Assembly (NCBI GenBank): GCA_021777835.1
Contig: JAJYDC010000003.1
Span: 124,001 to 188,000, forward strand
Direction of reading: 5' to 3'
DNA length: 64,000 nt
DNA from: Bacteroidota bacterium
GTDB lineage: Bacteria > Bacteroidota > Ignavibacteria > Ignavibacteriales > Ignavibacteriaceae
Shown here: positions 10,745-24,546 of the stretch, in pieces
Numbering within the stretch: the stretch's first letter is position 1
Layout of the letters: each line of letters opens with the position of its first letter
The notes under the pieces: generated by a model
Databases searched by the model: none
Told to the model about the DNA's origin: nothing
Seen by the model: the letters and a program-made list of their open reading frames with translations, nothing else
Translations under genes and position numbers: made by a program

Positions 10745-11014
10745 ATGAAAACAGAAGAAATTAGATGTGTACACGCATGTAAAAACACTTGCGCAATGTT
10801 AAATGAGTCTCTGCGTAAGGAAGCTGCAATTGTCCGCTTTTATGAAAGTATACTAGAAGACTGTAATTTACCTGAAATAAGAAGCTTTGTAGAAACTACG
10901 ATAGAAGATAGAAGAAAGAGTATCTTAAAAATCATCCAAAAGCTCAATGAAATACACGCCCGCTCACAAGTTGTCGATGGAATAACCTCAAGCTTTAATA
11001 ACATTGACGGATAG
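10745..11014 (+). CDS. Small Cys-rich helical protein of unknown function
   Basis: An 89-residue protein with no family I can name. The N-terminus has Cys8, Cys12 and Cys16 (CVHACKNTC, spacing Cx3Cx3C) and a fourth Cys at 40, so a metal or Fe-S site is possible. The rest is predicted helical and amphipathic (EAAIVRFYESILEDCN, then PEIRSFVETTIEDRRKSI), resembling one ferritin/rubrerythrin-like helical hairpin. It starts 34 bp after korC behind a purine-rich stretch (AAAAGAGAAGAAAG) and is probably the last gene of the kor operon. A redox or accessory role for KOR is only a guess from position. Confidence 0.6.
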   Translation: MKTEEIRCVHACKNTCAMLNESLRKEAAIVRFYESILEDCNLPEIRSFVETTIEDRRKSILKIIQKLNEIHARSQVVDGITSSFNNIDG

Positions 11015-11086: not shown

Positions 11087-11147
<61 letters not shown>

Positions 11148-11159
<12 letters not shown>

Positions 11160-11201
11160 CTAAGAAAGCCTGATAAAAATATCAGGCTTTTTGTTTTTAA
11201 T
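11148..11201 (+). repeat. 54-bp direct repeat, left copy (tRNA 3' end plus terminator)
   Basis: These 54 bases, from CTGCCCCCGCTAC in the tRNA T/acceptor stem through the terminator T-tract, recur without mismatch at 17064-17117. Weaker similarity (a GTTAT.CTA block) continues for about 25 bases on the right of both copies. A duplicated tRNA 3' end is the classic footprint of site-specific integration at a tRNA gene. Confidence 0.9.
11165..11195 (+). terminator. Rho-independent terminator after tRNA-fMet
   Basis: Perfect 11-bp stem AAAGCCTGATA / TATCAGGCTTT with an AAAA loop (11165-11190), followed by TTG and a T-run. An identical copy lies at 17081-17111 within the right-hand repeat. Confidence 0.9.
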
Positions 11202-11264
11202 TAAACCAAGGTTTTTTGTTATTCTAATAACTGAATAGACTGATAATAATTAAAAAATGGTTTT

Positions 11265-11393
11265 ATGACCGGAATAAGAAAAACATATTATACGTATGTA
11301 ATCCAAAGTCAAGAGGGCTATCATTATACAGGAATGACTGAGAATTTAGAAAAGAGGTTATTAGAACATAATGAAAAAAAACTTTTTTTCTGA
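11265..11393 (+). pseudogene. Truncated GIY-YIG endonuclease relic
   Basis: The 42-codon frame reads MTGIRKTYYTYVIQSQEGYH, then YTGMTENLEKRLLEHNEKK, and stops at TGA. This matches the first half of single-domain UvrC/GIY-YIG nucleases: the YVxxS strand, the Y-x-G-x-T motif and the NLExRLxEHN helix. The normal second half, with its catalytic Glu and about 40 more residues, is absent, and the following DNA does not resume it in any frame. It begins 64 bp after the tRNA repeat. A second, more decayed copy of its 5' end lies at 18239-18297, so the gene was probably once whole beside the tRNA. Confidence 0.75.
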
Positions 11394-11475
11394 GCTACAA
11401 TCAATAATTTTCAGCTTATCTTGATTCTTGTTATTTAATAGCCTAATTTCTAATCAAAGGAAATTGAACAGGAGT

Positions 11476-11868
11476 ATGTTTAAGGGAATTCTAAAATATT
11501 GTTTTTTATCCGCCCTCTGTGGATTACTCTTTTCCTTTTTATTTATTTTAACTTCGCAGACACAAACTTCAACAGGGGGAATTGATTCCAGCATAATTTC
11601 TTTTCCCAAAGATTTTCAATGCCAAAAGCTTAATAGTACCAACTTAGAACTTTATAATACCGCCTTTATCTTTAGTAATATTTCTGAAAAATTATCAATA
11701 TTAAAAAGTGAAATTGCAATTCAGAAAAGAAAACATCAAAACAAGCTTAAAGTAATAGATAAGCTTGAAGCCAAACTTTTAACTAAAAATTTTCCTAATA
11801 CATTTCAAAAAGAATCTTCCCAATCTAAACTCATCGATCAAACCAACTACTGCTGCTTTCTGATTTAG
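11476..11868 (+). CDS. Hypothetical membrane-anchored protein (130 aa)
   Basis: I do not recognise this protein. From the ATG at 11476 it has a Lys/Tyr-containing start and one hydrophobic segment at about residues 8-27 (FLSALCGLLFSFLFILT), a low-complexity Ser/Thr/Ile stretch, a predicted coiled-coil or helical region (SEKLSILKSEIAIQKRKHQN, then KLKVIDKLEAKLL), and a short Cys-containing tail (TNYCCFLI). The track frame begins 16 codons earlier at a TTG without a Shine-Dalgarno; the ATG has AAAGGA 15 bases upstream. It sits inside the repeat-bracketed accessory segment. It may be a real small membrane protein or a decaying fragment. Confidence 0.4.
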   Translation: MFKGILKYCFLSALCGLLFSFLFILTSQTQTSTGGIDSSIISFPKDFQCQKLNSTNLELYNTAFIFSNISEKLSILKSEIAIQKRKHQNKLKVIDKLEAKLLTKNFPNTFQKESSQSKLIDQTNYCCFLI

Positions 11869-11999
11869 GATAACATATTGTAAATTCTTAATGAATCCTT
11901 CCTGTGGGGTATGCAAAATAACTTTGCAGCGGCGTTTGGATTTACATATTAAAAGCAAGCGCCTTAAATTACGGATATTTTTTATATAAACTATTTCTT

Positions 12000-12182
12000 A
12001 TGAATTGTAACTTTTCCCTTGAGGCATTACTCTATAATATTCTTGGGCAAAGGATTAAATCGATTTTATTAGAAGAAGACAGACGTGCAGGCAAATATAA
12101 CATAAATTATAATGCAGATAATTTAAGCAGCGGAGTTTATTTCGCTTTGCTAAAACAAAATCAAATAGTCTCAAAAGGATAA
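12000..12182 (+). pseudogene. Remnant of a T9SS C-terminal sorting domain
   Basis: The 60-residue frame reads ALLYNILGQRIKSIL, then RRAGKYNINYNADNLSSGVY and FALLKQNQIVSKG. This is the second half of the type A T9SS sorting domain seen complete at the end of the two following genes (compare LKVYDITGKEIKTLI and LSSGIYIYVLKT). The upstream NYPNPFNPST part and any passenger domain are missing, and the usual KKMxLLK ending is replaced by SKG-stop. It is most likely the tail of a deleted exported-protein gene. Alternatively it is simply a noncoding scar, since no good ribosome-binding site precedes the ATG. Confidence 0.65.
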
Positions 12183-12234
12183 ATAATGTTATGTGTTACA
12201 AATTTTTTTACAGAAAATAAAAGAGAAATTAAGA

Positions 12235-13116
12235 ATGGGAAAATATTTACTTCTTTGCTTTTTATTATTTCAATTTAATATTTATCCTCAATTATTTATT
12301 AACGAGCCTGCCCCCTTAAAGCCAGGTAATTACTGGATGTATTCGGATTATTCAGGAGGAAAATTTTCTTATCGTGTTTTCGATAGTACTGCTGTTATCG
12401 ATTCTAATTTATACTATTTAGTTGAATATAAATATCCAAACGGACCAAAATTAGAAAGATATTATCAATATAACCGATTAGACACAAATAATTTTTATAT
12501 AAGATATAATGATAATTCATTTTCGAATCTCGAAGTGAAATATTTTAAAAAAGATGCAAAGTTAAATGAGTCATGGACAAATATTTTTTCAGGTTACAAA
12601 AGAACTGCTTATTACAGAATAATTGATACGGGTACAACTGTTTGGAATGGGAATTATACAAAAGTAAAATTATTAGAAGTAACTGATAGCGCATTGGTTG
12701 ACCAGTGGCAATACTGGTCGGATGATTTTGGGCTTTTGCAAGTTATGGATTTTGAAGGAGCTTCAAATTACCTTGTTGCCTGTGTAATTAACGGTAAGGT
12801 TTATGGCGATACAACATTTACCGATGTAAAAGAAATAAAAAATAATATTCCTTCAGAATTTCATTTGTTTCAGAACTATCCCAACCCATTTAATCCATCG
12901 ACAAAAATAAATTTTGATATACCAAATACTAGTTTTGTAACGCTTAAAGTTTATGACATTACCGGAAAGGAAATAAAAACTTTAATTAATGAAGAAATGC
13001 GACCAGGAAGTTACAGTGCGGACTTTAACGGAAATGGTCTTAGCAGCGGAATATATATTTATGTACTAAAGACACCAAAATGTTTAGCCGCAAATAAAAT
13101 GACTTTGCTCAAATAA
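12235..13116 (+). CDS. T9SS-exported hypothetical protein (293 aa)
   Basis: The ATG at 12235 starts a signal peptide (MGKYLLLCFLLFQFNIYPQ); the longer frame from 12193 adds only a charged leader and is not preferred. Residues 20-205 are a beta-rich passenger with many Tyr/Trp/Asn (PGNYWMYSDYSG, WQYWSDDFGLLQ) that I cannot assign to a family. The last 80 residues are a T9SS type A sorting domain: FQNYPNPFNPSTKINFDIP, LKVYDITGKEIKTL, PGSYSADFNGNGLSSGIY and the ending NKMTLLK. It should be secreted across the outer membrane by the type IX system and processed or anchored at the surface. No T9SS machinery gene is in this window. Confidence 0.75.
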   Translation: MGKYLLLCFLLFQFNIYPQLFINEPAPLKPGNYWMYSDYSGGKFSYRVFDSTAVIDSNLYYLVEYKYPNGPKLERYYQYNRLDTNNFYIRYNDNSFSNLEVKYFKKDAKLNESWTNIFSGYKRTAYYRIIDTGTTVWNGNYTKVKLLEVTDSALVDQWQYWSDDFGLLQVMDFEGASNYLVACVINGKVYGDTTFTDVKEIKNNIPSEFHLFQNYPNPFNPSTKINFDIPNTSFVTLKVYDITGKEIKTLINEEMRPGSYSADFNGNGLSSGIYIYVLKTPKCLAANKMTLLK

Positions 13117-13282
13117 AATAGGGGATGGTGCGGCAACACCAGCCCGCATAACTAAAATAAAAGACTTACTATTTTCTGTAAATAATAGAGACATTATTAC
13201 ATTTTTAAATAGTAAAGCCTTATTATTTTTTGCGATGTAAAGTAATTACTTGCCGTTTCAATATTTGTGACATAGGTAATTT

Positions 13283-16200
13283 ATGAAAATCTTCATGAAA
13301 AATTTTCTGATATTTATCTTTTTTTCTTATTTCTTATTTGCACAAGTACCTGTTACCAAGTGCGATATGACTGCAAATATTCCACAGGGTACAGTTTATG
13401 CTACAACCGGCGGAATGTACAAGCCCTCAGCAAATGCACCTGGACAATATTTTAGAATATTGATAGTATTTGCTCAATTTGAGAGTGACATTACAGATAT
13501 TTCTAATTGGCAAAAGGGAAGCTTGCCAAGTTGGGCTAATAATCTCATTGATCAAGCTCCATCTTCAAGTTATCGTAATAACACTATCTCAGATTATTTT
13601 AAAAAATTGTCTGGTGGGAATTTTGATACAATCGGAGATATATACCCTTCAATAATTACTGTTCCAATTAACCAAAATTATGGTTCTGCCAATCAATATG
13701 TCTTAAATGTTTTAAATAATAGTGTGACGAACTTTAAACGTTACGATAATTGGAAATTTCAAAATGGCAGTTTTGTTTTTTCACCGGAAAATGGTGATGG
13801 TTATCTTGATTTAGTACATATAATTTACAGATGGGCGGACCCTGGTTGGTTTAGTCTCTCTGGAGGTATAGCAACGCTAAATTTTACTAATGATTTTATA
13901 ACTCATGATGGTGTGAAAATTAACGGATCATCTCTATCAATTTACGCTTCTGGAATTACAACAAACAACAAGGGCGCATCTACTGATAACTTTGCCTTCA
14001 TTCAGCAATTCGCGCATGAATTCGGGCATTACTTATTTGGAGGGGGACATACTACAGAAGGCGGATTAATGCAAGGCGATCCTTATGGATATGATGGAAT
14101 AACCCATGCCATGAATGCCTGGGAAAGAGCACGTCTTGGATATATTACTCCTATGAATTATTACAATGGCGAAACTAAAACATTAAGAGATTATGTTGAA
14201 ACCGGAGATGCATTAAAAATTCAGATTGCAACTGGCGAAGAACTTATGATAGAAAATCATCAAAGACACTTATCTTATGATCAAATAATTAGAGGTGGCG
14301 CTCAGGGCGGTAATTGGGACCCCAATTCGCAATTAGGTAAAGGGATATACCTATATTATGTAAAAAACGCAGACAATTATCCGTGTACGGATTTTATGTT
14401 AACTGCAGATGGAGGATGGAATTGGCAGTATGCCGGCAATATAAGTATGCCCCCTGGTTGGCCGTCAACTCTACCATTAATTGACAAAGGTACACCTTAT
14501 CGATATTTACCAAATACGCCAGATAACCAAATAGGTAAAGGAGATAGAAATCCATGGTTAGAAGTAAATGGTTTACCAACCTATTATAATTACCGTTGGC
14601 ATAGCAGAGATCCACTTACTAACCAATGGGTTTTAACAAGAAACATCATGGGCGATGAGAAAGATGCTTTTAATGTTGGTTATAATGAACTGATTACGCC
14701 ATGGAGTAATCCCAGCACAACAAAATTTATTAATGGGTCTGAGATTCTTACAAATTTAGCTGTTCAATTGGTTTCGCAAGATCCATCAACTGGAAGTGTT
14801 TCAATTAAAATTTTTAATCAATATTCAAGTGACCTTACTCTTCCCCCATCCAAGCCGCAAAATTTACAAACCTCTTTAACTTCTGATGATCATATATTAA
14901 TAAATTGGTTCCCTAATTGGGAACCGGGATTAAATTCTTACAAAATTTATAAAGCTATTACAACTGGTAATGAACCGTCAAAGTATAATTATTTAGCAAC
15001 GATACCGTCAAGCCAAACAACTTGGACAGACCCGGTTAGTAATACTACTAACGGTTTTACAAAAGTTTTTTATAAAGTATCAGCTTTGGATAATTCAAAT
15101 CAAGAGTCTGTTCAATCTGATTATGCATTTATAAATTTTCTAAATGGTCAAATAACTTCTAATACTAATCTTACTTCTTTAACTATTATAAATTCCCCTG
15201 TAAATGTTTCATCAGGTGTTACCCTAACCGTTCAGTCCGGTGTAACACTTAAGTTTGCTCCCGGAGATTCACTTACTATAGACGGTGTCTTATCAGCACA
15301 AGGCATATCTACAAACCCTATATCATTTACTTCCACAGGCAGCACTTCTCCCGGCAGTTGGGGAACAATTACGTTCAACGGTTCCGGTGCGGCAAGTTCA
15401 AATCTTAATTATGCCAATATTACTTACGGTGCCGGTATTAAATGCCTTAACGGTGCAAACGTTACAATCCAAAATTCATATATCGATACTTGTACAAATG
15501 GAGTTTATATTTATAACTCAGCGCCTCAAATATTAACTAACCATATACTTGAGCCCCAGCAAAATGGGATTTACGGTGAAGCTTCTGGCATGTATCCTTC
15601 GGTAATTGATAACAAAATAATCAAAACAACTGCCAGCAGCAGCTATTATCATAATTATCAAGGTTTATGGTTTACAAATAATACTACGGTTTATGCCGCT
15701 CATAATGATGTAAGCGGGTTTTGCTGGGGGGCATATTTCGGCGGTGGTGTTCATGCTATTTTTAATACCAATTCCTATATTATTCACTATCCGAATAATC
15801 GTTTTACGTATAATTTATATGGCATTGCAGCCGGATATGGCAGCTACTGTTATGCCGGAGTTTCATATAATCTTAGCTTCTATAACAGCATTCACGATAA
15901 TACAACATATGATGCTTATTCATACCAAAACAGTACTATTATCGCACAATACGATTATTGGGGTACTAACAGTCCAAAGCAATATGTTGAATATGGGTCA
16001 GTATTAGATATCTCAAATAATTTATCATCAGATCCATGGGGTACCAGCAGTAATTCTCCTGCAATTAAGCAGACAAATAACCTACTCACTGCTTCTTATA
16101 GTACTTCTGCAAATCAGTCTCAAGTAATTCAACCGGCAGATAGTAACCTTTCGGGTATATTTGCAGGAATTTCATTTGAAAATGCCGGTAGAATTGAAGA

Positions 16201-16942
16201 TGCAATCGCATGTTATAAAAATATGATCGCAAATGATAATAATGCGGGATTTGCTTTAACCGAGCTAGCTGCAATAAATAATAAATACTCAAGAAATGAC
16301 ATGCTTAGTTACTTTGCAAATATTCCCGTCGTCAATAAACATTATCCACTGGCATTAAAACTAATTGCAGATAATGATCTGCAAAACAATAAGTTTGATG
16401 AAGCAATAAGTATTTATGATAAGTTAATCACTAATTACCCAAATGATTATCAAGGAATAAATGCTAAGTTTGAAAAGCTGTTTGCATATCTAAACATAAA
16501 GAATGATAAGATAAAAGCAACACAAATGCTATCAGATATTAAGGCAAGGAATCTAACAGACACAGAATGGGCAATGAGAACAGATGCAGCTGAAGGTTTA
16601 TTAGGGCTAGCAGGTAATAGTGCAACTAAAAATAAGGCAGTCGCTTCAAACCAAAATAATGGCATAAATAATCTCCCAAAAGAATATGAGCTGTTCGCTA
16701 ATTATCCCAACCCGTTTAATCCATCGACAATAATAAGCTATCAACTACAAAATGATGGATTAGTTACACTAAAAATCTTCGATGCCTTGGGAAGAGAAGT
16801 AAAAACATTAGTTAACGAGGTTAAATGTCAAGGAAGATATTCAGTAAGTTTTGATGCTTCACAACTTGCAAGTGGTGTTTACTTCTATCAATTGAGAACG
16901 GGTGATTTTGTATCTATAAGGAAGATGATACTGATGAGGTGA
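13283..16942 (+). CDS. Large T9SS-secreted M6-like metalloprotease with beta-helix
   Basis: A 1219-residue modular exported protein. A signal peptide ends near residue 20. The catalytic domain holds FAHEFGHYLFGGGHTTEGG with His245, Glu246 and His249, and later MNAWERARLGYI, which resembles immune-inhibitor-A/M6 peptidases. The usual HExxHxxGxxD is altered, with Gly and His (256) displaced by one residue. A fibronectin-III-like domain covers roughly 525-620 (PSKPQNLQTSL, INWFPNWEPGLNSYKIY). A right-handed beta-helix covers about 650-880 (ITFNGSGAASSNLNYANITY, QNSYIDTCTNGVYIYNSAP). A helical TPR-like stretch lies around 960-1110 (RIEDAIACYKNMIANDNNAG). A T9SS sorting domain ends the protein (NYPNPFNPSTIISYQL, RKMILMR). 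It is probably a surface protease acting on an extracellular protein substrate. Confidence 0.8.
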   Translation: MKIFMKNFLIFIFFSYFLFAQVPVTKCDMTANIPQGTVYATTGGMYKPSANAPGQYFRILIVFAQFESDITDISNWQKGSLPSWANNLIDQAPSSSYRNNTISDYFKKLSGGNFDTIGDIYPSIITVPINQNYGSANQYVLNVLNNSVTNFKRYDNWKFQNGSFVFSPENGDGYLDLVHIIYRWADPGWFSLSGGIATLNFTNDFITHDGVKINGSSLSIYASGITTNNKGASTDNFAFIQQFAHEFGHYLFGGGHTTEGGLMQGDPYGYDGITHAMNAWERARLGYITPMNYYNGETKTLRDYVETGDALKIQIATGEELMIENHQRHLSYDQIIRGGAQGGNWDPNSQLGKGIYLYYVKNADNYPCTDFMLTADGGWNWQYAGNISMPPGWPSTLPLIDKGTPYRYLPNTPDNQIGKGDRNPWLEVNGLPTYYNYRWHSRDPLTNQWVLTRNIMGDEKDAFNVGYNELITPWSNPSTTKFINGSEILTNLAVQLVSQDPSTGSVSIKIFNQYSSDLTLPPSKPQNLQTSLTSDDHILINWFPNWEPGLNSYKIYKAITTGNEPSKYNYLATIPSSQTTWTDPVSNTTNGFTKVFYKVSALDNSNQESVQSDYAFINFLNGQITSNTNLTSLTIINSPVNVSSGVTLTVQSGVTLKFAPGDSLTIDGVLSAQGISTNPISFTSTGSTSPGSWGTITFNGSGAASSNLNYANITYGAGIKCLNGANVTIQNSYIDTCTNGVYIYNSAPQILTNHILEPQQNGIYGEASGMYPSVIDNKIIKTTASSSYYHNYQGLWFTNNTTVYAAHNDVSGFCWGAYFGGGVHAIFNTNSYIIHYPNNRFTYNLYGIAAGYGSYCYAGVSYNLSFYNSIHDNTTYDAYSYQNSTIIAQYDYWGTNSPKQYVEYGSVLDISNNLSSDPWGTSSNSPAIKQTNNLLTASYSTSANQSQVIQPADSNLSGIFAGISFENAGRIEDAIACYKNMIANDNNAGFALTELAAINNKYSRNDMLSYFANIPVVNKHYPLALKLIADNDLQNNKFDEAISIYDKLITNYPNDYQGINAKFEKLFAYLNIKNDKIKATQMLSDIKARNLTDTEWAMRTDAAEGLLGLAGNSATKNKAVASNQNNGINNLPKEYELFANYPNPFNPSTIISYQLQNDGLVTLKIFDALGREVKTLVNEVKCQGRYSVSFDASQLASGVYFYQLRTGDFVSIRKMILMR

Positions 16943-17063
16943 GTGCCAAGCAAAGCTTGATCTGTTCACAAAGGCTGATAAATCTATCCTGCTGGTCGGC
17001 AGGTTAGATGAGGCAAGGAGTTGCTATGCTTCCAAGTCTCAATCGTTGTAAATCTGCCTCGAA

Positions 17064-17117
17064 CTGCCCCCGCTACTAAGAAAGCCTGATAAAAATATCA
17101 GGCTTTTTGTTTTTAAT
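17064..17117 (+). repeat. 54-bp direct repeat, right copy (tRNA 3' end plus terminator)
   Basis: Identical to 11148-11201, including the last 12 bases of tRNA-fMet and the whole terminator hairpin, but the upstream tRNA body is absent here. The distance between copies is 5916 bp. It marks the right boundary of the accessory segment, whether an integrated element or a duplication. Confidence 0.9.
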
Positions 17118-17155: not shown

Positions 17156-17200
17156 ATAACCCAAAGGTTGTTGGTTCAATTCGCCGTCGCGAACTACTAA
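17156..17200 (+). pseudogene. Degenerate tRNA-fMet 3'-half ghost
   Basis: ATAACCCAAAGGTTGTTGGT, then TCAATTCGCC and CTACTAA, aligns with the anticodon-to-3'-end part of the intact tRNA (11121-11163: ATAACCCGAAGGTTGTAGGT, TCAAGTCC, CTACTAA) with several substitutions and indels. No acceptor or anticodon stem can form. It follows the right-hand 54-bp repeat by 38 bases. Confidence 0.6.
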
Positions 17201-17540: not shown

Positions 17541-18047
17541 ATGATTTCATTAAAGAAAAGAAATTACAATGGAACCGAGACTCACCGAATGCAAGAATTG
17601 GATGGTCTTCCTCTGGCAACTTTTATAAGTCGTGCCGTAGCTTTTATAGTGGATTTTCTAATCACTATTGTCGTATCTGTGCCTATCTTAATATTAGGAG
17701 CTAAGCTATTAGAGCTCTTTGGTCTTGTAAAAGATGATTTGCGTTTGGTGTTTGATTTTAGACATTGGTATAGTTACATTCTTATTGTTGCATACTTTTC
17801 ACTATCAATTTATTATGGCAATGGAAAAACACTTGGCAAACGGCTTATGGGCATTAGAGTCGTTTCCCTTGTTCATGAAAAGATTGGATTCTGGCATGCA
17901 GTGGAACGAGCTCTCGGTTATGGAGCTTCATTTTTAGAATTTGGATTTGGCTTCCTGCAATATTTCATTGATGCAAATAGGCGTACAGTACACGATCGTA
18001 TCGCTGAAACTATTGTTATTCAAGATCGGAAATCCAAGGACTTATAA
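17541..18047 (+). CDS. RDD family membrane protein (168 aa)
   Basis: The protein shows the RDD-domain pattern: ATFISRAVAFIVDFLI at residues 26-41 with Arg31 and Asp38, a second hydrophobic segment (IVVSVPILILGAKLLELF) and a third (WYSYILIVAYFSLSIYY). NGKTLGKRLMGIRVV is the family's most conserved loop, and the end reads NRRTVHDRIAETIVI. RDD proteins are small inner-membrane proteins; some act in ion or metabolite transport, but most are uncharacterised. It starts with an ATG after AAAAAGGAAAATC. It lies just outside the 54-bp repeat pair but between the two GIY-YIG relics, so it may belong to the same accessory history. Confidence 0.85.
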   Translation: MISLKKRNYNGTETHRMQELDGLPLATFISRAVAFIVDFLITIVVSVPILILGAKLLELFGLVKDDLRLVFDFRHWYSYILIVAYFSLSIYYGNGKTLGKRLMGIRVVSLVHEKIGFWHAVERALGYGASFLEFGFGFLQYFIDANRRTVHDRIAETIVIQDRKSKDL

Positions 18048-18238
18048 ATTATTTTTCACCTAACCCGCCCCTCATCGCAGACATCGTTTTCGGTGCTCAT
18101 TTTTGAATATTCGGGTAATGTGGTAAAGGCATGTGTTATTGTTCAGCCTTGTTCAATAAAATAAAATTATTAAATCCGCCGCGTTATTGCCATATGGCAT
18201 TTCAATGATACTATTACTAAATAGCTCTTCTAAAGTCA

Positions 18239-18297
18239 GAATCGACTTATAATAATTCTAAAATGATTTCATGTCCGGAATAAGTCAAACATATTAT
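18239..18297 (+). repeat. Diverged second copy of the GIY-YIG 5' end
   Basis: These 59 bases align without gaps to 11233-11291, about 85 percent identical by eye, covering the leader, the ATG (18271 against 11265) and the first codons (MSGISQTYY against MTGIRKTYY). After that the frame loses all similarity. The rest of the gene-free stretch 18048-18385 holds nothing else I can identify. The copy shows that the DNA now following the tRNA was once also found here, 7 kb away. Confidence 0.75.
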
Positions 18298-18385
18298 GCA
18301 AACATCTCCGCAAATCACCTTATTATTTTGAATATCATTATTCTATAAATTTTAACCCAAACCGGACATAAATATCTTTCTAGAA

Positions 18386-19516
18386 TCAATACAAAACATT
18401 TATATTCTTTTCTTCACATATTTGTTTTAACTTATCCGGCCACACAGCTACGCTTACTTCGCCTAGATGAGCACATCTTAATAAGTACATGTAAGTCCTT
18501 GATTGACCAATGCCGCCCCCGATGCTTAAAGGAATTTCATCTTTCAATATTGCTTTATGATATGGAAGCCTTAAGAAATCTTCTTGCTCCGACATTCTTA
18601 ATTGAAGCCTTAAAGTGTCTTTGGTTACTCTTATACCCATTGAACTTAATTCATGTCTCCTTTTGGTTACCGGGTTCCAAACTAGAATATCACCGTTTAA
18701 ACCGTGAAATTGTTCACCATTCTTTTTTATTGTTTCGGTTGCCCAGTCGTCATAGTCCGCCGCTCGAAGTTCATGTGGATATCCGTCCTTTAGTGGCCAA
18801 CCTATACCAGCAATAAATAATGCCGGCGCCTTTTCAAGTAGTACACGTGTTTCTCTTTCCTTCCGCGGCAAGTCTGGATACATGTCTAATATCTCTTCAG
18901 CATGTAGGAATGCTAATTCTTCGGGAATGTCAGGATATTTATTCGTCCTTAGCTGTGGATACATCTCTTGAGCTTTAAGCCCGGCGTCGCGTATTACTTT
19001 CCATATTTTTCTTACTACTTCTTTTAAGAAATCTAGATTCCTATCTTCAGAAGTTATCGTCCTTTCCCAGTCCCATTGATCGACATAAGAGCTGTGGTCG
19101 TGATCAAGGAAGTAGTCTTTTCTTATTGCACGCATATCAGTGCATATACCCTCGCCGGCTGCACAGCCGAATTCTTTAAGTGCGATTCTTTTCCATTTAG
19201 TCGCTGCTTGAACAACTTGAGCTTGAATAGGTACCTCAAGCCCCAATCCGCATGGGAATTGTACAGGCGTCCTTGAGCCGTCTCGATCTAAATAATCATT
19301 AACTCCGCTATCTTTATCAACTATTAGCGGTACGGGTACCATCTGAAGATTAAGTTCTTTGCAAAGATTCTCTTCTATATAATTCTTAATTGCATATATC
19401 GCTTTGGCTCTCTCTTTGGGCGGCAGTAATTGCTCGTAGCCAATCGGTAATATGTTTTTTAGTTCTTCATAGTTACCAATACCCGGACCGGCAAGATCTG
19501 ACTTCTTATCTTTCAT
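18386..19516 (-). CDS. asnA: Aspartate--ammonia ligase (asparagine synthetase A)
   Basis: A 376-residue AsnA-type enzyme that makes asparagine from aspartate, ammonia and ATP in the cytoplasm. It is a class II aminoacyl-tRNA-synthetase-fold protein. Visible family motifs include VPLIVDKDSGVNDYLDRDGS, VQAATKWKRIALKEF, the HSSYVDQWDWERTI block and the C-terminal motif 3 SIGGGIGQSRTYMYLL. The start ATG at 19516 follows AAAAGGAGAATTATC; a longer frame to 19591 lacks support. It stands alone, divergent from the decarboxylase gene 400 bp away. Length is somewhat above the 330 residues of E. coli AsnA, mostly from an N-terminal extension and insertions. Confidence 0.92.
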   Translation of the reverse strand: MKDKKSDLAGPGIGNYEELKNILPIGYEQLLPPKERAKAIYAIKNYIEENLCKELNLQMVPVPLIVDKDSGVNDYLDRDGSRTPVQFPCGLGLEVPIQAQVVQAATKWKRIALKEFGCAAGEGICTDMRAIRKDYFLDHDHSSYVDQWDWERTITSEDRNLDFLKEVVRKIWKVIRDAGLKAQEMYPQLRTNKYPDIPEELAFLHAEEILDMYPDLPRKERETRVLLEKAPALFIAGIGWPLKDGYPHELRAADYDDWATETIKKNGEQFHGLNGDILVWNPVTKRRHELSSMGIRVTKDTLRLQLRMSEQEDFLRLPYHKAILKDEIPLSIGGGIGQSRTYMYLLRCAHLGEVSVAVWPDKLKQICEEKNINVLY

Positions 19517-19916
19517 GATAATTCTCCTTTTGTTTTGGAAATATATTTTGGGTAAGTAATATATATTGAAATAGTTGCCCTTTTGAGACAAACTTTAATT
19601 GGCAGATAACGCAGTTAAATGAAGTTCGAATAATATCCAAATTCGTTCTCCCTCTTAATGGTTCATTAACCTGTTCTAATTTAATAAAAATATTATTCAC
19701 TTATGATATTTTAATTTGAAATTATTTTTAAGTATCCTTTTAACTTATTGTGACTGTCAAATACTATTTTATAATATAATATCAATTTGTTATGCTAAAT
19801 AAATTAAAGCTTTGGGTAGTGTCATTCTAAATATTAATGAAAAATTCATTAGTTTTACTATTCAATTGCGATATTAGTCAAAGAAGTTAAATTATATATT
19901 AACGTTAGGGCAGCAA
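19517..19916. other. Divergent intergenic region asnA / decarboxylase
   Basis: 400 AT-rich bases that must hold promoters for both divergent genes. On the plus strand TTGTGA (19748) and TAATAT (19772) are 18 bases apart, a weak promoter candidate. No riboswitch-like structure was seen. Confidence 0.4.
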
Positions 19917-23625: not shown

Positions 23626-24546
23626 CTATGATTGTTTTGAATCATTCACAATTTGCATAATTCCTGAATGATAATCTGTAGCTTTAAAAAATCTATTCTC
23701 AAAGTCGCTGCTATCGAAGAGATAATCGTATTCCTGCTGGTACATCATCTCATAAATCTCTTTAATAATTGGATTAAATAATCCCGTCATTTTCAGCATC
23801 CATTTCCTTAGAACCATATACTTAGGTTTTACACCATATCCTGAAGCAATGAATTGAACAAATTGTTTGCCCGTTAGTGCATTCATATCTGTCGGTAAAT
23901 GCCATACACGATTATACGCACTCGGCGTATTGCCAAGCAATGCCGTAGCTCTAGCTGCGTCCGGAACGTATGTCAGTGAATGTTTTGTTTTATCACTTAC
24001 AAGCAGCTGCGCAGTTTGCCCCTTTCTCAATTTATCAAATACTGTTGACCAAGTTATCGCAGTCGGTGTATTACCGTAGAAATCCGCCGAACGGGCAATT
24101 ATTGCTGTAATGTTTCCTTTCTTAACTTCATCCATCAACTGAGTAGCTATCCTGGCTCTTATTTCTCCCTTCTTGCTCGTAGGATTCATCGGTGTGTCTT
24201 CTTTCATCCATCCATTTACTCTGCCGTACATATAAACGTTATCAAAAAATACTAGCTTTGAGTTATTCTTTTTACATGCCGATATAACATTGGTCATTAT
24301 TTTTGGCCATAGTTCTTGCCATACTTCAAGTTTGTACTGTAGCCCTGCAGTAAGATACACTACTTCAGAATTTCTTACAGCTTCCTCTGTTTGAGCTGCA
24401 TCTGATAAATCTGCCTTAAATAATTCATCTGTAAGATTAATGACTTTCGGATTTCTGCTTACTAATCTAATTTTATTAGTGTATTGAGGAAGCATTCTTG
24501 CTAACTCATTTCCTATTGCACCGCCTGTACCCAGTATTGTTTGCAT
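23626..24546 (-). CDS. NAD-dependent epimerase/dehydratase family protein
   Basis: A 306-residue extended short-chain dehydrogenase-like protein. The N-terminal nucleotide-binding loop reads ILGTGGAIGNELAR, in place of GxxGxxG. Other landmarks are KADLSDAAQTEEAVRNSEVV, KLVFFDNVYMYG (the position of the YxxxK region, atypical here) and ARSADFYGNTP. It lacks a clear catalytic Tyr-x-x-x-Lys, so activity is uncertain; it may be an NAD(P)-binding sensor or atypical reductase such as the NmrA-like proteins. It stands alone between the phosphatase gene and the efflux operon, transcribed in the same direction as both. Confidence 0.75.
   Translation of the reverse strand: MQTILGTGGAIGNELARMLPQYTNKIRLVSRNPKVINLTDELFKADLSDAAQTEEAVRNSEVVYLTAGLQYKLEVWQELWPKIMTNVISACKKNNSKLVFFDNVYMYGRVNGWMKEDTPMNPTSKKGEIRARIATQLMDEVKKGNITAIIARSADFYGNTPTAITWSTVFDKLRKGQTAQLLVSDKTKHSLTYVPDAARATALLGNTPSAYNRVWHLPTDMNALTGKQFVQFIASGYGVKPKYMVLRKWMLKMTGLFNPIIKEIYEMMYQQEYDYLFDSSDFENRFFKATDYHSGIMQIVNDSKQS

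Follow-up and report, generated by a model that had tools for sequence, protein, structure and literature searches.

A duplicated tRNA-fMet end in an Ignavibacteriaceae genome as the probable remnant of a tandem array of a tRNA-associated GIY-YIG nuclease element

What does an exact repeat of a transfer RNA (tRNA) gene end record when no integrase is found beside it? The question is raised by a locus in the window, the whole 64,000-nucleotide stretch of an Ignavibacteriaceae genome that was analysed (contig JAJYDC010000003.1, positions 124,001 to 188,000). The 54 bases at 11148-11201, which begin within the gene for the initiator tRNA (tRNA-fMet), recur as an exact copy at 17064-17117, a start-to-start distance of 5916 bp. 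An earlier note on this DNA had reported the repeat and its spacing, both confirmed by the exact recurrence, and had described it as a tRNA 3' end plus terminator; the composition stands, and the length is corrected, since the first 13 bases of the repeat, not 12, are the 3' end of tRNA-fMet, with a terminator-like hairpin coming next at 11165-11190. The repeat was then taken for the trace of tyrosine-recombinase integration. The two copies are instead likely to be parts of a degraded tandem array of a tRNA-associated element that carries a GIY-YIG nuclease gene, as is suggested by comparison with two sister loci, L009 and L010. The pieces from which the array is recognised are the following.

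10745..11014, + strand: 89-aa gene upstream of the tRNA; locus anchor, together with korC, in the nearest relatives
11087..11160, + strand: intact initiator tRNA-fMet (cat), found by ARAGORN, with the same tRNA at the same place in relatives
11148..11201, + strand: left copy of the 54-bp repeat, tRNA 3' end and terminator
11165..11190, + strand: terminator-like hairpin, AAAGCCTGAT...ATCAGGCTTT
11207..11264, + strand: leader of a GIY-YIG gene (identity 95% with L009, 86% with L010)
11265..11400, + strand: truncated GIY-YIG nuclease gene directly 3' of the left copy, 42 codons and then a stop (PF01541, protein match, tree)
17045..17076, + strand: tRNA-fMet half of an array unit, 3' part, its palindrome region partly deleted (alignment to L009/L010 units)
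17064..17117, + strand: right copy of the 54-bp repeat
17156..17200, + strand: second, decayed tRNA-fMet 3' half, in which 17156-17179 equal tRNA positions 35-58 and a remnant of the tRNA end follows
18223..18300, + strand: third relic, lying between the RDD and asnA genes, with the leader of a GIY-YIG unit and its first codons (79% match to L010 11208-11284)

In both L009 and L010, a tandem array stands behind the same tRNA-fMet, and the order korC, 89-aa gene, tRNA-Met is kept in L009-L021 and L023. A unit of these arrays consists of the 3' half of tRNA-fMet (from about the anticodon), a palindrome in the T-loop (TTCGCCGCGGCGAA or TCTGCCGCGGCAGA), the rest of the tRNA, the terminator and a spacer. 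In one unit an intact 85-aa GIY-YIG gene takes the place of the short spacer, and its stop codon falls where the next tRNA half begins. The window pieces align to these units, and the 54-bp repeat is therefore the part, tRNA end plus terminator, that two units have in common. A decayed palindrome, TTCGCCGTCGCGAA, is found at 17180-17193 in the second tRNA-fMet half of the window, where L009 and L010 have the intact form TTCGCCGCGGCGAA. In L009, L010 and two further loci (L100 and L101), the tRNA has a replacement end and the displaced native end lies beyond the nuclease gene. The palindrome breaks the loop in the displaced halves, and the restored tRNA alongside is intact.

The GIY-YIG relic behind the left copy matches the L010 nuclease as protein, and in a tree of the family it groups with L009 and L010 with a support of 99. 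PF01541 is found in the L010 nuclease and, in the window, only as this truncated relic. Recognisable homology to L009 stops near 11400 by alignment and by a shuffle test, and the Pfam alignment of the relic reached profile position 68, with 4 stops. Decay of a full-length gene was considered and rejected, given that the DNA past 11400 is no more similar to L009 than shuffled DNA is (184/500 shuffles are as good); for this reason the gene is treated as truncated. The window copy is dead, with its gene cut off near codon 42. The secreted-protein genes at about 11.4-17.04 kb interrupt one array unit, and array sequence resumes near 17045. With this cargo between the nuclease and its tRNA half, what is a unit of about 400 bp in the sisters looks like a bracketed 5.9-kb segment in the window. 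The GIY-YIG relic from 11265 on, the tRNA half at 17156-17200 and the relic at 18223-18300 had all been overlooked, and the nuclease and tRNA-half relics bear out the suggestion of a decayed mobile element at tRNA-fMet. What the window holds is an interrupted, decayed array, unremarkable in itself, which was earlier misread as a pair of attachment (att) sites.

The nuclease family behind the array is widespread and mostly tied to tRNA genes. Matches to the L010 nuclease at an expectation value (E) of 1e-8 or better are found in 65/80 genomes of the family and in 155/392 genomes sampled across the phylum. In 60 stretches around such matches, 69 of 83 nuclease copies have an intact tRNA gene or a tRNA fragment no more than 150 bp away, in every case with at least one on the nuclease strand, compared with 7/1200 random intervals (20 draws per stretch, same 60 stretches); at 400 bp, 47 of the 60 stretches have a tRNA or fragment near the nuclease. 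The search of the phylum gave 24 new loci, its best matches, 20 of which have a tRNA or fragment within 300 bp. Several tRNAs have tandem arrays beside them, among them tRNA-Asp, Leu, Arg, Ser and Cys, with five copies at a period of 315 at tRNA-Asp and five at a period of 450 at tRNA-Leu, for example. In a one-contig genome (G047), 13/42 tRNA genes have their own fragment (E 1e-4) or a nuclease within 500 bp, and a tRNA-Thr array falls just outside this cut. Of the 42 tRNA genes in the window's genome, fragments were found for fMet alone (the others were searched for about 600 bp on each side); a scan that reached no farther than 500 bp from each gene missed the fMet fragments. Elsewhere in that genome, the start of a GIY-YIG gene lies immediately behind tRNA-Pro(cgg) and is cut by the contig end (L185:1-172; G000:C56:1-172, minus strand). 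Arrays of this kind may break assemblies.

The presence or absence of an array at a fixed site is seen at tRNA-Asp in G034. Of four genus-mate loci that were fetched, L268 ends before the tRNA, and in the other three pfkA and the same downstream gene flank a lone tRNA-Asp, which is an empty site with both flanks kept. In G034, the site holds five nuclease units and a gene with a HAD domain. This HAD_SAK_2 gene (L100:4821-5318) lies just beyond the five-unit array and is absent beside the lone tRNA-Asp in the three genus mates. The HAD_SAK_2 domain is named for RNA repair proteins. From such neighbours it seems that accessory genes may gather at nuclease-tRNA arrays. For the window itself, no exact empty site with two matching flanks could be demonstrated in the 11 relatives examined 3' of the tRNA.

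In a tree of 76 nuclease sequences, copies with the same target tRNA largely group together: 23 changes of target (unassigned copies counted as one group) are required, compared with a mean of 53.8 for shuffled labels, with none of 200 shuffles as low. Support is 97 for the fMet group (15 fMet rows and one unassigned second copy), 95 for Asp and 98 for Leu. Among the tree labels, Phe in L152 and L158 is probably a miscalled Ala fragment that overlaps the nuclease gene, and in L109 the label Ser(cga) had been given to two copies that are Ser(gct).

Movement between species is shown by the divergence of the nuclease relative to its neighbours. Between the window and L009, the synonymous divergence (dS) is 1.34 for korC and 1.18 for the 89-aa gene, and 0.04 (one change) for nuclease codons 1-42, where the value rests on 26 synonymous sites; the dS to the L010 nuclease is 0.12. 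L009 and L010 are 98.9% identical in korC and 91.3% in the nuclease, and the L009 nuclease is closer to the window relic (95.2%). The nuclease is far less diverged than its neighbours and discordant with korC, and this discord is the best evidence for transfer between species at the same site. The ratio of nonsynonymous to synonymous divergence (dN/dS) between the L009 and L010 nucleases is 0.32, from few changes.

An alignment of 16 nuclease sequences has invariant Y, S, G, R, H, E and K positions, among them Y11, Y21, G23, R31 and E68, which are residues of the catalytic type. The conserved Y, G, R and E of the domain, the presence and absence at a fixed site in relatives and the transfer are features shared with free-standing GIY-YIG homing endonucleases. 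A Pfam search of the 85-aa protein found no domain beyond PF01541, and so no separate DNA-binding domain, such as that of I-TevI. The nearest solved sequences are 1zg2 and 1ywl (UPF0213), followed by SLX1; neither the UPF0213 and other single-domain GIY-YIG proteins nor SLX1 are known as mobile elements. SLX1 is structure-specific, and this gives a hint that the nuclease may recognise a tRNA-like shape in the DNA.

The palindromes and double hairpins in the tRNA fragments fall in tRNA loops, with positions judged by eye. The fMet insert lies at 58|62 in L009, L010, L120, L123, L125, L127 and L128 and at 56|62 in L110. The Asp insert lies at 51|60 in L100 and L138 and at 50|59 in L147, and the Asn insert at 57|61 in L117 and L129, among other sites. 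Ser inserts are found at 70|71 (L108, L139) or 35|36 (L104), and Arg inserts at 22|23 (L102, L144, L148); in L102 it is the 5' side that carries the element. Among 41 inserts taken from broken tRNA copies, near-identical variants being excluded, a perfect terminal inverted repeat of 4 bases or more is present in 24, compared with a mean of 0.26 and a maximum of 3 for shuffled inserts. The tRNA-Ser(gct) fragments at L104:2913-3984 carry a 55-nt double hairpin in the anticodon loop that resembles the double-hairpin elements of fungal mitochondria. The layout reads as the insertion into a loop of a unit that carries one tRNA half, with the intact tRNA at one edge and the broken halves after it.

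Most likely, by analogy with known mobile nucleases, the arrays result from a homing-type process with replacement of a gene half. The small nuclease would cut, or help to open, a loop in the tRNA gene that it targets (for tRNA-fMet, the T-loop); the cut is inferred from the palindrome positions. Repair would then copy in a unit with three components: the tRNA half that is missing, together with its terminator; the nuclease gene; and a short flank from the other half, ending in a loop-destroying palindrome. A functional tRNA would thereby be rebuilt at one edge, and the displaced half would be left as a broken fragment, with repeated events or unequal recombination lengthening the array. The repair route and the way in which the cargo arrived are, like the cut, proposed steps.

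Several observations weigh against this account. The 60 stretches were hand-picked, with tandem ones taken first and contig ends mostly excluded, and 13 of them have no tRNA or fragment within 400 bp of the nuclease. A fuller tRNA library gave only weak matches on these (E about 0.05), in three stretches, and Rfam detected no family at gathering score in 12 of the 13 (L130 left out). Five loci (L113, L114, L119, L136 and L149), whose small GIY-YIG genes have neither a tRNA nor a fragment detected in the vicinity, form a well-supported clade of their own, such that not all relatives are tRNA-linked; this clade may have another target or a housekeeping role. The nuclease tree is built on few columns, 34/73 of its inner forks are weak and near-copies help the clustering, with Ser(gct) copies not clustered and Ser(cga) and Asn copies clustered only weakly. 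The relic's dS comes from few sites, and the order of units in the window is unlike that in L009 and L010. The insert site is not constant, as fMet inserts are also found at 37|48 (L125, L126), 38|47 (L110) and 12|19 (L125). Similar palindromes are present at places other than tRNAs as well, and some arrays, such as that in L200, have no nuclease gene in the stretch examined. The L200 array (L200:583-1211, in G047) consists of tRNA-Thr(tgt) followed by about five tandem tRNA-fragment units at a period of 111 bp, with no nuclease gene in the 1.3 kb examined; these units are perhaps non-autonomous derivatives.

The dispersed palindromes also bear on a second explanation, which is possible and on balance unlikely: that palindromes like the repetitive extragenic palindromic (REP) sequences are put by Y1 (IS200-like) transposases into the single-stranded loops of tRNA genes, and that the nuclease joined later or only trims. 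REP palindromes are paired with Y1 transposases, and they share with those described here the character of short dispersed palindromes, the latter lying in broken tRNA copies at recurrent positions. In G047 the palindromes, though dispersed, are concentrated around tRNA genes: 12 TCCCGA...TCGGGA sites are found, of which 7 are within 300 bp of a tRNA gene, 1 is inside a tRNA gene and 4 are elsewhere; the palindromes away from tRNAs suggest that palindromes may have a mobility of their own. Y1_Tnp genes are found in 7/8 genomes, and the exception (G025) is also without a GIY-YIG match at E 1e-8, which, together with the loop positions of the inserts as judged by eye, would suit the action of a Y1 enzyme. 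However, palindrome, tRNA half and nuclease repeat as one unit, and the Y1 positions listed for the one-contig genomes G034 and G047 do not coincide with those of the arrays. Y1 transposases may have a partner role in moving the palindromes.

It is improbable that the arrays are plain tandem or segmental duplications of a tRNA 3' end with the GIY-YIG gene as a bystander. The arrays do look like tandem duplications, some (L200) lack a nuclease gene in the stretch, and the two window copies are identical. Against a bystander role stand the recurrence of one nuclease clade at one tRNA in different genera, most clearly for fMet, Asp and Leu, a tRNA adjacency far above the control, and a nuclease much less diverged than its neighbours. 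The earlier note had offered duplication of the locus as an alternative. This was nearer to the truth than integration, and plain duplication is not favoured as the cause of the array.

Tyrosine-recombinase integration, with the repeat as attL and attR of an element that lost its integrase, is considerably less probable again. A duplicated tRNA 3' end is what such an element leaves, and a genuine one is present in the same tRNA-fMet in L012, where an element of about 4.8 kb (L012:11073-15945) has a tyrosine-recombinase gene (PF00589) next to its far end and a helix-turn-helix (HTH) gene. In L012, however, the repeat is a 25-bp tRNA end, TTCAAGTCCTGCCCCCGCTACTAAG, that stops just past the tRNA, with different terminators behind its two copies, contrary to the window, where the similarity is not limited to a core: with mismatches allowed, it runs for 79 nt at 90%, through the terminator and into the spacer. 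Hairpins resembling that at 11165-11190 are also found 3' of tRNA-fMet in the array-free relatives L011, L018 and L020. In the nuclease-carrying sisters, the tRNA end with its terminator is part of an array unit, together with the GIY-YIG gene, and in the window a second tRNA half lies 3' of the right copy. The absence of an integrase that the earlier note had remarked on is confirmed for the 10 window proteins scanned with Pfam (10.7-24.5 kb), none of which is an integrase.

The comparison of relatives that had been proposed as a check was made with 14 fMet loci including the window (L015, with its tRNA on the other strand, was excluded). Three are arrays (the window, L009 and L010), one is the integrase element of L012 and ten have no second tRNA copy downstream, although for L017, one of the ten, only 92 bp could be compared. 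Single-copy sites are expected by the att explanation; they cannot tell tyrosine-recombinase integration from homing. At another of the ten, L016, a GIY-YIG-like match (48% over 33 aa; L016:1401-1499) lies shortly 3' of tRNA-fMet with no repeated tRNA half, and would be a different or older trace at the same site. It had also been allowed that the repeat might be a common dispersed sequence. This is ruled out, as the 24-base hairpin core, with up to 3 mismatches, is confined to two places in the 3.64-Mb genome, the two repeat copies.

The extent of the foreign DNA also argues against a segment that ends at the right repeat. The cargo and the genes beyond it are as follows.

11428..11868, + strand: 146-aa open reading frame (ATG at 11476), the first of the cargo, with no Pfam match; it may be spurious
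12000..12182, + strand: relic of a type IX secretion C-terminal sorting domain, with a score below the curated cut-off
12193..13116, + strand: cargo gene for a 307-aa protein with a Por_Secre_tail domain
13283..16942, + strand: cargo gene for a 1219-aa secreted protein with Por_Secre_tail and a weak reprolysin-like metallopeptidase match (below cut-off)
17541..18047, + strand: RDD-family gene
18386..19591, - strand: asnA (aspartate-ammonia ligase), inside the segment absent from the sister locus L010

When the 12 other genomes available for the genus were searched at E 1e-10, none had a match to the RDD gene, which shows that foreign DNA reaches past the right repeat. Synteny with L010 by blastn returns at window position 23628, after the RDD gene, asnA, a pyridoxal phosphate (PLP) decarboxylase and a SpoIIE-type gene, so that the right repeat falls within a longer variable region and does not mark the border of the foreign DNA. 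Of 11 relatives compared 3' of the tRNA, L010 alone shares window sequence, from 23.6 kb on (sorting-domain matches aside). The earlier picture of a 5.9-kb accessory segment bracketed by the repeat is thus abandoned: with the sister arrays, the nuclease gene and a foreign segment that extends to 23.6 kb, the repeat was rejected as a recombinase att pair and the 5.9 kb as an element. Of the cargo, the 1219-aa protein has a homologue in G023 (56% over residues 5-656), and homologues of the 307-aa and 1219-aa proteins are also neighbours there (L161, G023:C412), with no tRNA gene in the 4959 bp; by this shared adjacency the two appear to be a conserved secreted pair.

A further explanation is that the tRNA fragments are useful to the cell and retained for that, as decoys or a reserve of dosage, for instance against defence nucleases that cut tRNA. 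It has a precedent in the amplification of a phage tRNA-Tyr gene by SegB (PMC13096335), and is the least credible of the explanations, as the fragments are broken in loops and decaying, as in the window, and their patchy distribution suits selfish spread.

The nuclease array can be compared with known mobile systems. It shares with tRNA-targeting integrative elements the use of a tRNA gene that is restored by a carried copy of its 3' end, and differs in having no integrase, in repeating the terminator, in forming arrays, in the loop insert and in versions on the 5' side (tRNA-Arg). SegB of T-even phages is a free-standing GIY-YIG homing endonuclease beside tRNA genes that drives segmental amplification of the nuclease-tRNA segment and its high-frequency inheritance in mixed infections (PMC13096335, PMC2988022). 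SegB is a phage gene in a tRNA cluster, whereas the nucleases described here are chromosomal and about 85 aa long, and their units, made up of palindromes and tRNA halves, are found at many isoacceptors. Fungal mitochondria (Glomus atp6, atp9, cox2 and nad3; Allomyces atp6) have mobile endonuclease open reading frames that insert near a gene end and bring a replacement end, with the displaced native end downstream; these are single insertions in protein genes, with LAGLIDADG enzymes apart from a GIY-YIG in atp9 (PMC3630166). The replacement-end layout is common to both systems; the bacterial one differs in its tRNA genes, tandem arrays and loop palindromes. No account of chromosomal bacterial arrays of this kind was found in the open-licence literature among the matches listed, which is a weak negative, and the family behind the window array appears undescribed in the literature examined.

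A broader proposal, for and against which the comparisons seem evenly balanced, is that minimal GIY-YIG nucleases constitute an undescribed class of bacterial mobile element, widespread in the phylum. Such elements would be mostly bound to one isoacceptor, would home into tRNA loops, replace one tRNA half and block re-entry with a palindrome, and would give rise to tandem arrays, nuclease-less derivatives and sites for accessory genes. Duplicated tRNA ends are routinely taken for integrase footprints, and here the same trace would come from a tiny nuclease that copies tRNA halves. If the proposal is true, the gene-end replacement strategy of mitochondria also works on bacterial tRNA genes, and it would explain the clusters of tRNA fragments, and perhaps the assembly breaks at tRNAs, in these genomes. 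It would also offer a testable system, with a nuclease clade for each tRNA and a palindrome that marks the predicted target loop.

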